NCBI RefSeq assembly: GCF_018437265.1
Contig: NZ_JAAMFL010000006.1
Coordinates: 62,001 to 126,000 of the forward strand
From: Fructobacillus parabroussonetiae
GTDB lineage: Bacteria; Bacillota; Bacilli; Lactobacillales; Lactobacillaceae
Reading direction: 5' to 3'
DNA length: 64,000 bases
A program made the translations under genes and the position numbers. The notes under the pieces are model-generated. The model was not told where the DNA came from. It saw nothing but the letters and a program-made list of their open reading frames with translations, and ran no database searches. Positions 14,626-53,990 of the stretch are shown here, piece after piece. Within the stretch, counting starts at the first letter, position 1. Every line of letters begins with the position of its first letter.

Positions 14626-14943
14626 TTAGGCGTATTTATGCAAAATTTCGCTTAATTGTTCTTTATTGTGGAAACCAGTCAAGCGTTCAACGGCTTGTCC
14701 GTCCTTCATCACAACCAACGTCGGGATGGCCCGAATGCCAAAGTTTCCTGGCGTTTCCTTGTTTTCATCCACATCCACCTTATAAAAGTCGATGCCTGAG
14801 AAACTGCCATCCTCTGCTAAAGCGTCGAGGACTGGTGACTGCATCTTGCATGGGCCACACCAAGTTGCCCAAAAATCAGTAATGGAGACACCGTTCTTTG
14901 TTTTCTCCTCGAAATTTTCGTCTGTTAATGCTTCAACTGTCAT
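14626..14943 (-). CDS. trxA: Thioredoxin
   Basis: 105-residue cytoplasmic disulfide reductase with active site WCGPC (Cys29, Cys32) and cis-Pro in AIPTLVVMKDG. Electrons would come from TrxB (53055..53990). The ATG overlaps the thiN stop (ATGA), with AGGAGG upstream, so it is translationally coupled to thiN. Confidence 0.97.
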   Translation of the reverse strand: MTVEALTDENFEEKTKNGVSITDFWATWCGPCKMQSPVLDALAEDGSFSGIDFYKVDVDENKETPGNFGIRAIPTLVVMKDGQAVERLTGFHNKEQLSEILHKYA

Positions 14944-15590
14944 TCATTCCTCCTATCCGTCGATTGAATCACCAGCACTATGCCGCTTCCAATTGAAACG
15001 TGTACCAATTCTCCAATAAATTCATTCGACGAATACATTCTACCGCTATTTACGCTCAAGGTCAACGGATATTCTGCGTCGAGGATTTCAAAATTATCAA
15101 GTATACCTAATGGCATAAAACCTAAATAATGATGCCCTGGCAACTTTTTAACCACCTGGTGATTGGCATCCAAATAGGTCACTTGGTTCTGCCGGTCCAC
15201 CACCCGTAAAGAACCAACCAAATGATGAAAGTCCGCTCGCAAAGGGATGGTCAAATTTGACAACTCATGGTCGAGCCGTCCGCCGGTTGCTCCATAAAGA
15301 ACAATTTCGTCTGCTCCCTGCTGCATGGCAAAGCGAATGGCCAACTCCGTATCCGTATCGTCTTTAGCCGGTGGATAGACGGCAAATTGCCGCTCCTCTT
15401 GAAAACACCTTAAGCGCCCTTTCTCCTCTTCTGAGACTGAATCAAAGTCGCCGACTGCAAGAAGTGGTTCAATCCCTTCTTCCATCAGGAAAAAGGCGCC
15501 TCGATCCGCGCCAATCCATTGACCCGGTTCCTCAAACATTTTTTCTGGCCAATTCTCTCTGGGGCCCCCAGCTAAAACGTTAATTCGCAT
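14940..15590 (-). CDS. thiN: Thiamine pyrophosphokinase
   Basis: Converts thiamine to thiamine diphosphate using ATP. The 216-residue product has the N-terminal catalytic domain with ADRGAFFL and VGDFDSVSEEEK, a central AKDDTDTELAIRFA with the DDTD motif, and GATGGRLDHELSN. A C-terminal thiamine-binding beta domain follows. The ATG at 15588-15590 has GGAGG immediately upstream. A longer frame starting 48 bp earlier crosses the preceding terminator-like hairpin and is rejected. It follows rpe and overlaps trxA. Confidence 0.93.
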   Translation of the reverse strand: MRINVLAGGPRENWPEKMFEEPGQWIGADRGAFFLMEEGIEPLLAVGDFDSVSEEEKGRLRCFQEERQFAVYPPAKDDTDTELAIRFAMQQGADEIVLYGATGGRLDHELSNLTIPLRADFHHLVGSLRVVDRQNQVTYLDANHQVVKKLPGHHYLGFMPLGILDNFEILDAEYPLTLSVNSGRMYSSNEFIGELVHVSIGSGIVLVIQSTDRRNE

Positions 15591-33495: not shown

Positions 33496-33574
33496 GGTTT
33501 GTCGCGACGAAATTTAGAAAAAACGGCTGTTTTTGATCTTTTTGTCATCTTTTAATGTTGCTTTTGTCTTTCTT

Positions 33575-33614: not shown

Positions 33615-34061
33615 ATGGTAAAAGCTTTACTAAAAAAATATGACAAAATCATTCGTTACCTATTGTTAGGTTTTGGAACTTTTTTGGTCAATATGTGGTC
33701 TTATGGTCTCATTTCAAAAGTCGCCAATTATTCGATTTCCTACACCTTAGCCTGGGCGATTGCCGTACTCTTCGCCTATGTGACCAACCGTCAGTGGGTC
33801 TTTGAATCAAAGGCCCGCGGATGGCAGCTCCTCCCTGAAATCGTCAACTATTATCTTTCACGAGGACTGACTTTTTGGTTGGGCTTGGTCATCATGTGGA
33901 TTGGTGTTCAACACCTGAAGTTCGACGACTTTTACGTCAATATCGCGCGTAATGCCATGTTGCTCATCCCCAATTATTACTTAGCAAAGCTTTACGTCTT
34001 TCGAGATAAGAAGCGGCAACTAGACGACGAAAACCTGACCGAAGAAGAATTGGGCGAATAG
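33615..34061 (+). CDS. GtrA-like membrane protein
   Basis: 148-residue protein with four membrane helices typical of the GtrA family. Motifs include IIRYLLLGFGTFLVNMWSYGLI at the N-terminus and AVLFAYVTNRQWVF, where the central NRxWVF is characteristic. GtrA-like proteins are thought to flip lipid-linked sugars for wall polysaccharide or teichoic acid glycosylation. The ATG at 33615 is chosen because homologues begin near KKYDKIIRY; its SD (GAGAG) is weak. Acidic C-terminal tail. Solitary rightward gene with no glycosyltransferase beside it. Confidence 0.85.
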   Translation: MVKALLKKYDKIIRYLLLGFGTFLVNMWSYGLISKVANYSISYTLAWAIAVLFAYVTNRQWVFESKARGWQLLPEIVNYYLSRGLTFWLGLVIMWIGVQHLKFDDFYVNIARNAMLLIPNYYLAKLYVFRDKKRQLDDENLTEEELGE

Positions 34062-34114: not shown

Positions 34115-34123
34115 TGCTATAAT
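34115..34123 (+). promoter_or_regulatory. Extended -10 promoter of a putative small RNA
   Basis: TGC-TATAAT on the plus strand at 34115-34123, placing +1 near A34130. No -35 and no reading frame follows before the terminator at 34246. Confidence 0.65.
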
Positions 34124-34129
34124 TTAGTC

Positions 34130-34246
34130 AGAAAAGGAGCCGTCCTGCTAGACGGCTCCTCAGGACAAAGCCGCAAAGCGGTGGCTGTCCTTTCTGGGAT
34201 ATTAAAAAACCATACTCAGCCGGTCAAAGCGAGAGTATGGTTTTTT
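34130..34246 (+). ncRNA. Putative structured small RNA (unassigned)
   Basis: About 117 nt between the extended -10 promoter and a strong terminator, with no start codon plus SD. H1: AGGAGCCGUC (34135-34144) pairs with GACGGCUCCU (34151-34160), loop CUGCUA. H2: AGGACA (34162-34167) with UGUCCU (34186-34191) enclosing a GCCGC/GCGGUGGC stem. H3 is the terminator stem 34206-34244. GUCCUG at 34142-34147 is also complementary to CAGGAC at 34161-34166, so an alternative fold exists. It matches no RNA family I recognise. It could instead be a trailer of the gtrA-like gene. Confidence 0.5.
34206..34246. terminator. Bidirectional terminator (small RNA / pepV)
   Basis: AAAACCATACTC (34206-34217) and GAGTATGGTTTT (34233-34244), 12-bp stem, T-run on both strands. 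Serves the rightward transcript and the leftward pepV. Confidence 0.93.
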
Positions 34247-34286
34247 GTTAGTCTTCTTTCTTTCGCTTTACCAAGTTCTTTGGCTG

Positions 34287-35702
34287 TTATTCTGGCAAGT
34301 TTGCCAATTCGACAATCGCCTGGCCATAGATTCCCATCGAACGAACCAAGTCGTCAACCAAGGCAAATTCGTTGACCTGGTGCATGGTCTCAGGCGAATC
34401 TGGGAAGAGCGCACCAAAGGCCACGCCACGTTCCATCAAACGGCCGTATGTGCCACCCCCGATTACCTGATCATGGGCTGGCAAGCCGGTTTGCTCATGG
34501 TAGATGTTCAACAAAGTCTGAACAACGGGATCTTCTGGCGCCACGTAGTGTGGTACTTGTGCGTGACCACCAATTTCTGCCTTGTGTGGCCAGTTTTCAA
34601 CCGCCTCGGCCAGCTTGCCACGAATAAAGTCGGGGCTAATGCCCTTTGGATAACGGAAGTTGTAGTTAATAAAGGCGCCGTTTTCTTCGTCGAAACGAAT
34701 GATGCCAACGTTCATCGACAAGGCACCCATGACGTCGTCCTGGAAAGCGACACCAAGTTGGCGACCGGTTGGATCATCGTGTGACCAAGTGCCCAAATAG
34801 GCCAAGAAGCCTGCAGCAGAACCACCAAAGTCATACTGCTCCAAGAAGTGAGCCAAGTAAGTACCAGCATTCTCACCCGTTTCCGGAAGGGAACCGTGAA
34901 CCTGCTTTCCAATCAACTCAAAGGAGACCTCATCGCCATCGAGGCTGACTTTGCCATGAATTTGAGGATGGGCCTTCAGATAGGCCGCAAACGCCTCATC
35001 CACCCTATCAAAGTCAAGGCCAGCCACCGTCGCGCGGGCGACACCAGGTACCATGTTTGTCCGCAAACCGGACTCAAATTTCAGCAACTGCGCCTTATCC
35101 CCGTTTGTTCCAGCAGCCGTCACGTTCACCTGCACGTTTCCCTTTTCCCCATTGATAATGGGGTATTCGGCATCGGGCGAAAAGCCGAAGGCGGGTGCGG
35201 GCTCCACTTCGAAGTAGCGCGTCATCCCCGTCCAATCGTTTTCCTCATCCGTACCAAAGATCAAGCGAACCCGACGCTTCAAGGGCAAATCCAAATCACG
35301 AATCATCTTGAAGGCGTAATAAGCCGCCAATCCTGGCCCCTTATCATCGGAAGCACCACGGGCAATGACTTTGCCATCCTCGATAACTGCTGTGAAAGGA
35401 TCGGTATCCCAGCCCTCACCGGCCGGCATGACATCAACGTGCGCGAGCAAAGCCACGTATTCTTCGCTGTCCTCTGGCCCGATTTCAATGTAGCCAACCA
35501 CGTTATCGATGTTCTTTGTGGTAAAGCCGTCCCGGTCTGCTAACGATAAGATGTGCGTCAGCGCTGCTTTCGGTCCGGGTCCCAGGGGCGCGTCCTCCGT
35601 TGCCTGCTGATCATCGCGCACGGATGGAATGGCTAAATAATCCGCCAAATCCGTTAAGTAGTCGGCTTCCTCTTCCTTTGCTTTCAACTGCCAATCGACC
35701 AT
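34287..35702 (-). CDS. pepV: Dipeptidase PepV (M20 family)
   Basis: 471-residue zinc aminopeptidase that hydrolyses dipeptides after oligopeptide uptake. Motifs: LLAHVDVMPAGEGWDTDPF (metal-binding His and Asp), GASDDKGPGLAAYYAFK (bridging Asp), GTDEENDW (catalytic Glu pair), SPDAEYPIINGEKGN, and a C-terminal VIGGGTYGRLM. The ATG at 35700-35702 has GGAGG at good spacing. A 17-residue upstream extension is not supported. Typical of lactic acid bacteria. Confidence 0.96.
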   Translation of the reverse strand: MVDWQLKAKEEEADYLTDLADYLAIPSVRDDQQATEDAPLGPGPKAALTHILSLADRDGFTTKNIDNVVGYIEIGPEDSEEYVALLAHVDVMPAGEGWDTDPFTAVIEDGKVIARGASDDKGPGLAAYYAFKMIRDLDLPLKRRVRLIFGTDEENDWTGMTRYFEVEPAPAFGFSPDAEYPIINGEKGNVQVNVTAAGTNGDKAQLLKFESGLRTNMVPGVARATVAGLDFDRVDEAFAAYLKAHPQIHGKVSLDGDEVSFELIGKQVHGSLPETGENAGTYLAHFLEQYDFGGSAAGFLAYLGTWSHDDPTGRQLGVAFQDDVMGALSMNVGIIRFDEENGAFINYNFRYPKGISPDFIRGKLAEAVENWPHKAEIGGHAQVPHYVAPEDPVVQTLLNIYHEQTGLPAHDQVIGGGTYGRLMERGVAFGALFPDSPETMHQVNEFALVDDLVRSMGIYGQAIVELANLPE

Positions 35703-35776
35703 GAAAATACCTCCGTCTGTTTTCTCCGGAAAAGTCTCACATGACTTTTTCATAATTTTCTAATGATTTGATTTTT

Positions 35777-52953: not shown

Positions 52954-52964
52954 CAATTCCAAAT

Positions 52965-53002
52965 AAAAAACGCACTGCCATTTAATTGGCAGTGCGTTTT
53001 TT
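52965..53002. terminator. Terminator of the mdh group
   Basis: CGCACTGCCA / TGGCAGTGCG (52971-52996), 6-nt loop, A-run before and T-run after. Confidence 0.95.
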
Positions 53003-53013
53003 ACTTGTTATAC

Positions 53014-53045
53014 AAAAAAGGATAACCAACAACCTGGTTATCCTT
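53014..53045 (-). terminator. Terminator of trxB
   Basis: AAGGATAACCA / TGGTTATCCTT (53018-53045), T-run on the minus strand. Confidence 0.92.
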
Positions 53046-53054
53046 TATCTGATG

Positions 53055-53990
53055 TTATTGCCTTGCGGCAAGGTAATTATATGCTTCTTGTCCAGCTAGG
53101 CCGCCATCGCCGATTGCCGTTGTAATCTGGCGCAAATCCTTCACCAGAACGTCTCCAGCAGCAAAGAGACCGGGAACAGCCGTTTCCATCCGCTGGTTGG
53201 CTTTAATCCAGCCGTTAGTGTCTGTGATGCCTAACTGAGTAAATTGGGCGGTATTCGGCTTTAAACCGATGTAAATAAAGACACCCGCTGTTTTAAAAGT
53301 CGAGTTCTCACCCGTTTCGTTATTTTTCAACTCGACAGACTGAACTTCATCGCCATTCCCATTGATGGCAGTCACCGAAGTGTTGAAGACGAAGCGAATG
53401 TTTTCCTGCTTCTTTGCCCGTTCTTGCAAGATTGGCTGTGCCTTCAATTGATCACCGCGGACAAAAATAGTGACATCTTTGACGATATTGGCCAAATAAA
53501 GGCCTTCTTCGACGGCAGAATCACCACCACCAACAACCGTTACGGATTCACCCTTGAAAAAGGCAGCATCACAAACGGCACAGTAAGAAACGCCTTTGCC
53601 CTGATAGTCCTCTTCACCAGGAACGCCGAGGTGCGTATGCTCTGAGCCCGTTGCCAGGATGACCGCAGGGGCTTGCAAGTCACCCATATCCGTGTGGACG
53701 ACTTTGTCATGGTTTTCTAAGACATCAATGCCAGAAACGGCACCAAACGAATATTCCGCGCCAAACTGCGTCGACGAGGCGTACATTTTCTCGGCCAAGT
53801 CAGGTCCCATGATTTTGTTATAACCTGGATAATTCTCGACCTCAGCCGTATTGTTCATCTGGCCGCCGTAGATTCCTTGATCGACCATCACGGTCTTCAA
53901 CTCCGCACGGGAAGCATAGGTTGCGGCCGTCATTCCTGCCGGACCAGCACCAATAATAATGACATCATAGTTTTTCACTTCTTCGGCCAT
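53055..53990 (-). CDS. trxB: Thioredoxin reductase
   Basis: 311-residue low-molecular-weight NADPH-thioredoxin reductase. FAD loop GAGPAG (14-19), redox pair CAVC (Cys137, Cys140), NADPH loop GGGDSA (154-159), C-terminal FAD motif GLFAAGDVLVKDLRQITTAIGDG. Keeps TrxA and the Msr enzymes reduced. AAAGGAG upstream; monocistronic. Confidence 0.97.
   Translation of the reverse strand: MAEEVKNYDVIIIGAGPAGMTAATYASRAELKTVMVDQGIYGGQMNNTAEVENYPGYNKIMGPDLAEKMYASSTQFGAEYSFGAVSGIDVLENHDKVVHTDMGDLQAPAVILATGSEHTHLGVPGEEDYQGKGVSYCAVCDAAFFKGESVTVVGGGDSAVEEGLYLANIVKDVTIFVRGDQLKAQPILQERAKKQENIRFVFNTSVTAINGNGDEVQSVELKNNETGENSTFKTAGVFIYIGLKPNTAQFTQLGITDTNGWIKANQRMETAVPGLFAAGDVLVKDLRQITTAIGDGGLAGQEAYNYLAARQ

Follow-up and report, generated by a model that had tools for sequence, protein, structure and literature searches.

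A Structured RNA Beside pepV in Fructobacillus parabroussonetiae Is Probably a Type I Antitoxin That Has Lost Its Toxin Gene

Why should a structured RNA with its own promoter and terminator stand between a gtrA-like gene and pepV when no gene is present for it to act on? The question is raised by positions 34115-34246 of a 64,000-nt stretch of the Fructobacillus parabroussonetiae genome (hereafter the window; features in Table 1), where the original prediction described an RNA of no recognised family able to adopt two mutually exclusive folds. Comparison with congeneric genomes leads us, with high though incomplete confidence, to read this feature as the antitoxin RNA (RNA II) of a chromosomal type I toxin-antitoxin module, broadly like TxpA-RatA or SprG-SprF, from which the convergent toxin gene has been deleted. 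On this reading, a formerly unassigned structured RNA would be placed in a recognisable antitoxin family and the locus would record, at the molecular level, how a toxin was lost while its antitoxin stayed, an outcome whose recurrence is its main interest.

Table 1. Coordinates of the genes, RNA elements and putative toxin remnant in the gtrA/pepV interval of the window.
Feature	Position	Strand	Basis
GtrA-family membrane protein gene, upstream neighbour (ORF opens at 33555)	33615..34061	+	start by comparison
Extended -10 element TGC-TATAAT, TGCTATAAT	34115..34123	+	sequence; copy conservation
Predicted antitoxin-type small RNA (RNA II), ~117-125 nt	34130..34246	+	fold, RatA/R1 matches, covariation
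Purine-rich 5' segment AGAAAAGGAG, last 5 nt within H1 5' arm	34130..34139	+	sequence
Hairpin H1, 10 bp, hexaloop CUGCUA, arms 34135-34144 / 34151-34160	34135..34160	+	fold, arm-swap, covariation
Hairpin H2, outer stem AGGACA/UGUCCU (34162-34167 / 34186-34191) and inner stem 34170-34174 / 34181-34185	34162..34191	+	fold
Bidirectional terminator hairpin, ends in T6	34204..34246	both	fold; terminator stem covaries
Putative toxin remnant, 8 codons and stop (LVKRKKED), 12 bases past the pepV stop	34248..34274	-	tail comparison
pepV (M20 peptidase), stop codon 34289-34287	34287..35753	-	ORF, homology

The extended -10, the 10-bp stem of H1, the outer and inner stems of H2 and the strong terminator are all present as originally described. 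The minimum free energy of the RNA, whose 5' end at 34130 is an estimate from the position of the -10, is -53.6 kcal/mol compared to a mean of -30.6 kcal/mol for shuffled sequences (z = -7.1, with none of 200 shuffles equally low); the folded structure is real at the sequence level and lies well past chance expectation. No credible ORF was found within the unit, in keeping with the ~117 nt free of translation signals noted at the outset. By eye, no recognisable -35 was seen upstream of the extended -10, but the promoter reading is supported because the -10 is conserved across 42 aligned copies of this RNA from congeneric genomes: TATAAT is kept in 34 and TGNTATAAT is exact in 26, the window's copy being included both times. 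The 5' ends of these copies average 82% purine, and that of the window's copy is 69% purine over 13 nt. A consensus scanner reported neither the extended -10 nor the terminator hairpin; extended -10 promoters without a -35 are outside its coverage, and its loop limit of 8 nt is probably why the terminator was missed. The sole terminator-like match that it returned is part of H2, and this single match does not exceed shuffled sequences (mean 1.6). A promoter, a lack of coding capacity, an intrinsic terminator and a conserved structure, the general marks of a type I antitoxin RNA, can all be recognised in the sequence.

The proposal that the RNA is a cis-acting switch with two exclusive folds came from the hexamers GUCCUG (34142-34147) and CAGGAC (34161-34166), which are indeed perfectly complementary in the window, and H1/H2 pairing of comparable strength was computed in one other copy among the 42. 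The alternative pairing does not compete energetically, however: when forced it yields -42.2 instead of -53.6 kcal/mol, a cost of 11.4 kcal/mol, with an ensemble probability of 0.0, and growing prefixes of the RNA form H1 first. In the two orthologous loci described below, the alternative helix is down to 4 and 5 of its 6 pairs, with a probability of at most 0.0026. The energetic cost, the zero probability and the interrupted pairing in both orthologs lead us to reject a two-state switch, and we attach next to no likelihood to this reading of the RNA.

That no RNA family had been recognised holds at gathering score, where Rfam returned no family for the whole 64-kb window, but not below it, where the best match over the RNA is RatA (RF01776; 38.5 bits, E = 0.001, gathering threshold 49), and the relatives of the RNA point to a type I antitoxin identity. 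The other sub-threshold Rfam matches between 33900 and 34500 (STnc370, mir-5583, COG2908, Retro_dr1 and sR38) had E-values from 0.08 to 3 and were taken as chance. Independent searches of 13 congeneric genomes for Pfam Hol_Tox and for Rfam RatA placed a convergent, opposite-strand RatA-like match beside 20 of the 22 above-cutoff Hol_Tox matches, at a gap of 30-47 nt, and the convergent partner of the remaining two, both on contig G007:C25, was found by the covariance model R1 described below. RatA itself matched 47 times at E <= 1, in 12 of the 13 genomes, with 27 of these matches convergent with a Hol_Tox match of any score within 400 nt. The gathering score of RatA was reached in none of the 13 genomes (best 47.5 bits). 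A control panel of 14 genomes gave RatA matches in three, two of them archaea, with none over the cut-off and no match in Bacillus subtilis, and Hol_Tox matches in 11, above cut-off in two. Since the RatA scores are sub-threshold and both searches have control matches, neither score is sufficient singly, and the family argument follows from the co-location of the two.

Of the 47 RatA matches, three were dropped as spurious by eye and two truncated tandem copies were omitted, and R1 was built in this analysis from the remaining 42 sequences, the window's copy among them. R1 finds such RNAs in all 13 congeneric genomes at E <= 0.1 and locates these short modules across lactic acid bacteria: at E <= 0.01, with E-values that are rough, it matched 76 of the 121 Lactobacillaceae genomes searched, representing 32 of 40 genera, with five of the 76 genomes, the window's own included, coming from the window's genus. 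We viewed 16 loci outside the genus, six of which were reversed or cut short; at nine of the ten that were readably oriented there is a convergent small hydrophobic ORF with a Shine-Dalgarno (SD) sequence. A further R1 match in the window, at 52955-53089 (29.6 bits, E = 0.008), was judged by eye to be two ordinary terminator hairpins behind another gene. PADLOC returned no match for two peptides, and a literature search on this antitoxin family (Fructobacillus, Leuconostoc, lactic acid bacteria and holin-like toxins), partial in its coverage, found no title or abstract opening that describes it.

Compensatory base changes, proposed as a check on H1 and H2, are found across this wider family, though they are not significant in the three orthologs alone. 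When 53 copies, the window and both orthologs included, were aligned by fitting to R1, both-side changes occurred in 21 of the 24 modelled pairs, 86.4% of cells paired compared to 71.8% in shuffles, and the covariation score was 0.382 compared to 0.153 for shuffled alignments and at most 0.156 for slid versions. All nine modelled pairs of H1 show both-side changes, and only 69-72% of its cells are paired because many copies are mismatched or out of register in this helix. An arm-swap comparison with fixed alignment columns, which is independent of folding and of the model, gave -12.7 kcal/mol for H1 arms with their own partner and -4.9 kcal/mol when swapped, with the own partner best or tied in 27 of 39 distinct rows. 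An earlier version with arms picked from the folds gave a similar contrast (-12.9 vs -4.5 kcal/mol, best or tied in 22 of 38), although such picking favours cognate pairs.

What the RNA may once have acted on is suggested by the same interval in two relatives. Between gtrA and pepV, Fructobacillus papyrifericola M1-21 (G008; pepV 95% identical) carries the RNA and a convergent 35-codon ORF with a GTG start, and F. broussonetiae M2-14 (G004; pepV 84% identical) carries the RNA and a convergent 34-codon ORF with a TTG start. Both ORFs encode a hydrophobic stretch and a basic tail, and both modules have the same order, with a leader repeating the outer arms of H2, then a short leader ORF with its SD, and finally the toxin-like ORF behind another SD-like stretch. 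We considered and rejected the idea that these toxins are frameshifted, as the first SD-ATG opens the leader ORF, and further downstream a separate SD-like stretch precedes the toxin start. A Pfam scan of the two ORFs gave nothing over cut-off, Hol_Tox (PF16935) included.

The window has no convergent small hydrophobic toxin gene, and the toxin body, the leader and the toxin promoter are all missing. Abutting the shared terminator is a short reading frame, TTG GTA AAG CGA AAG AAA GAA GAC TAA, whose product resembles LAKRKKKGN, the sequence with which the F. papyrifericola ORF ends in the same position against the terminator. The earlier statement that the RNA lacks a cis target gene is correct for the window, but apparently only since that gene was lost: relatives have the convergent toxin, and its tail seems to be kept here. 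Because the more distant F. broussonetiae carries the toxin, we infer from the three loci that it was lost from the window and not ancestrally absent. The remnant is just eight codons long and the ortholog ORFs are putative toxins, and the toxin reading is to be taken with that caveat. The stretch beside pepV holds a gtrA-like gene or the RNA in 7 of the 13 congeneric genomes and other sequence in six; in four of those seven (G003, G007, G009 and G011) gtrA lies directly against pepV with no module, so the history of the locus needs several losses or gains.

Toxin-less copies of the RNA are common in the genus. We scored 59 R1 matches (E <= 1e-4) from the 13 congeneric genomes for a convergent toxin ORF; a script found one at 36, and correction by eye left 37 with a plausible intact toxin, three ambiguous and 19 without. 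Of these 19, about a dozen have only a toxin tail left next to the terminator, as in the window; some are surplus tandem copies, and about five of the RNAs have themselves degenerated. Such loci offer natural, repeated cases for asking whether a type I antitoxin RNA lives on without its toxin, a question that arises from SprF1 and from the orz-only loci of Escherichia coli. The genome of the window has four of these RNAs, namely two on contig C14, one on C10 and the one in the window, and a single recognised toxin, on C14, which matches Pfam Hol_Tox at 41 bits. The C14 locus (L094, about 14643-15106) has tandem antitoxin RNAs for this one toxin, and G002:C1, G002:C2 and G007:C23 likewise have a surplus RNA upstream of a complete pair. 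The C10 copy (L232, G000:C10:51090-51223, minus strand) is a second toxin-less RNA with a toxin tail, LIVTLIKLGNKK followed by a stop, and lies next to the end of a putative glyS gene. At L236 (G012:C11:255474-255602) the toxin body is gone: by eye, the leader repeat survives together with a -10-like stretch and the first SD, and the leader joins the last toxin codons directly. F. broussonetiae has 18 antitoxin-model matches at E <= 0.1, a few of which are opposite-strand echoes (among its loci are L083, L085, L092, L095, L106 and L246), and no Hol_Tox above cut-off; its five scanned partner peptides differ widely from one another and none matches a Pfam family. In this genome the RNA side appears to be conserved, with a toxin side that has been replaced or has diverged past recognition.

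Several characterised systems resemble the RNA in part. RatA/TxpA of Bacillus subtilis likewise combines a small RNA with a short hydrophobic toxin gene that runs toward it, the two overlapping at their 3' ends, and relatives of the window's RNA pair with Hol_Tox peptides. RatA differs in size, being given as 222 nt with ~120 nt of predicted overlap (PMC6562991, PMC3531473) compared to ~117 nt and an estimated 50 nt for the RNA studied here, and the window's match to it misses the family threshold. The convergent toxin that marks a TxpA-RatA module is absent from the window; it is found at 20 of the 22 congener Hol_Tox loci and, with peptides that are not Hol_Tox, at both orthologs. SprF1 of SprG1/PepG1 from Staphylococcus aureus shares a purine-rich 5' end and an antisense 3' end, and two of six toxins of relatives match NCBIfam PepG1 (E = 5.8e-10 for the toxin in the window's own genome). 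These two matches reach only 38.6 and 30.3 of the 70 bits required, the other four peptides, including both ortholog ORFs, have no match, and the window again lacks the toxin. SprF1 is described as a dual-function RNA whose purine-rich 5' end binds ribosomes (PMC8158120, PMC8938821).

The par locus (Fst-RNA II) of pAD1 from Enterococcus faecalis is alike in having convergent promoters, a small antitoxin RNA and a common bidirectional terminator (PMC7472228). It differs in its direct repeats (DRa/DRb) in DNA, as the H2 repeat here has the same sense in both RNAs and by eye is inverted in the DNA, and Pfam scans of nine relatives' peptides found no Fst family member. The closest precedent for an RNA without its toxin is the orz-only loci of E. 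coli (OrzPmg), where a type I antitoxin RNA has outlived its toxin gene and a toxin fragment is left; in that study, about 30% of E. coli genomes have orz without intact zor and a Northern signal is reported for orphan OrzPmg (PMC11264685). OrzPmg has been shown by Northern blot whereas the window's RNA is predicted from sequence, and kinship between the two RNAs is not expected.

By published accounts, RatA, SprF1 and par RNA II pair with their toxin mRNAs through complementary regions, either the 3' ends or a common terminator, and the outcome is RNase III cleavage, lower toxin mRNA or a translation block (PMC6562991, PMC3531473, PMC8003834, PMC8158120, PMC8938821, PMC7472228). For RatA and par, those sources describe loop-loop contact as shown or proposed (PMC6562991, PMC3531473, PMC8003834, PMC7472228). 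The relatives of the window's RNA could work similarly. Where the pair is intact, RNA and toxin mRNA would converge on a common bidirectional terminator, and the complementary 3' ends that this gives are present in the sequences; the terminator loops would probably meet first, followed by H2 with the leader repeat if the architecture is a guide, and pairing would then block toxin translation or lead to RNase III cleavage. A deletion in the window, bounded by the pepV stop and the last toxin codons, probably took the toxin, its leader and its promoter, leaving the antitoxin unit intact and a terminator that most likely now also ends the pepV mRNA.

Two readings would instead tie the RNA to its neighbours. 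The terminator hairpin lies ~41 nt past the pepV stop with no other seen between, and the RNA could now regulate pepV as an antisense of the 3' end of its mRNA over the common terminator, triggering RNase III or stabilising the message. We consider this improbable, as the overlap is a by-product of geometry inherited from the toxin gene, and 10 of the 13 congeneric genomes have no such RNA in the stretch beside pepV. The RNA also follows the gtrA-like gene in the same orientation and might be its 3' UTR or a terminator-only trailer, an outcome that had been named in advance as one that would overturn the original prediction. RNAs of this kind, -10 included, face toxin genes convergently at many other loci and the promoter element is conserved, making a gtrA trailer very improbable.

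The weightier question is what an orphan antitoxin does now. The present copy seems to have no evident cognate mRNA, and toxin-first loss would be the expected order because losing the antitoxin first should harm the cell; the simplest reading that follows from these two points is a surviving antitoxin that is turning into a relic. It may still function, for example by SprF1-like ribosome binding or by protection from related incoming toxins. The corresponding alternative, that the orphan is kept for a toxin-independent job as an anti-addiction agent against toxins that arrive or are encoded at other loci, or by acting on ribosomes like SprF1 through its purine-rich 5' end, is compatible with the identity proposed here and differs on present function only. 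SprF1 offers a precedent (PMC8158120, PMC8938821), and toxin-less copies are frequent in the genus. A further point for it is conservation: the 80-nt core from the -10 to just past H2 (34118-34197) is identical to the toxin-bearing F. papyrifericola copy at 76 positions (95%), compared to nucleotide identities of 79% for gtrA and 84% for pepV, where 111 of 210 four-fold sites differ. With F. broussonetiae as outgroup, three of the four core differences fall on the paired F. papyrifericola side, one is ambiguous and none falls on the orphan, which is only suggestive, with four differences, that the orphan decays no faster than the paired copy. A recent deletion would produce the same picture, with conservation that may predate it, and 51 of 60 columns (85%) are conserved in the spacer ahead of the -10 as well. 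As to the ribosome version, the high purine content of the family's 5' ends speaks for it and the lower value of the window's own copy against it. For protection from toxins, the orphan's terminator region forms a duplex of -45.0 kcal/mol with the C14 mRNA, the sole recognised toxin mRNA of its own genome, compared to -100.6 kcal/mol for the cognate RNA; it ranks 17th of 42, as a typical family member would, leaving specific cross-silencing of the C14 toxin unsupported. Blastn against plasmid and phage collections at E 0.1 gave no match. On balance we regard a toxin-independent job as unlikely.

Similarly doubtful, in our estimate, is a broader conjecture built on these comparisons, according to which Lactobacillaceae would carry widespread, uncatalogued type I antitoxin RNAs opposite fast-changing small toxins behind a leader ORF, with the toxin repeatedly lost and the RNA retained under selection as a toxin-independent regulator that attenuates ribosomes like SprF1 or as standing immunity to toxin loci that invade, the window's RNA being one such guardian.

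Further features of the toxin genes emerged from the same loci. A short leader ORF (MV, MVLKS, MILKS and others, each followed by a stop) with a strong SD starts 35-62 nt upstream of the toxin start in 31 of 32 small toxin genes (L082, L094, L104, L107 and 27 others), and often overlaps or ends near the toxin SD; the pattern used to find it is permissive, since 12% of base-shuffled leaders contain it, compared to 14 of 14 genes tested a second time. This conserved two-start layout suggests translational coupling or a decoy. A simple duplex scan of the RNA over toxin leaders was uninformative, its best duplexes lying at about -27 to -36 kcal/mol and frequently falling at multiple unrelated sites. 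At its 5' end the toxin mRNA carries a same-sense repeat of the H2 outer arms (for example at L104, L102 and L094) that lacks the inner stem, and candidate roles for this repeat are RNA-RNA contact or shared processing.
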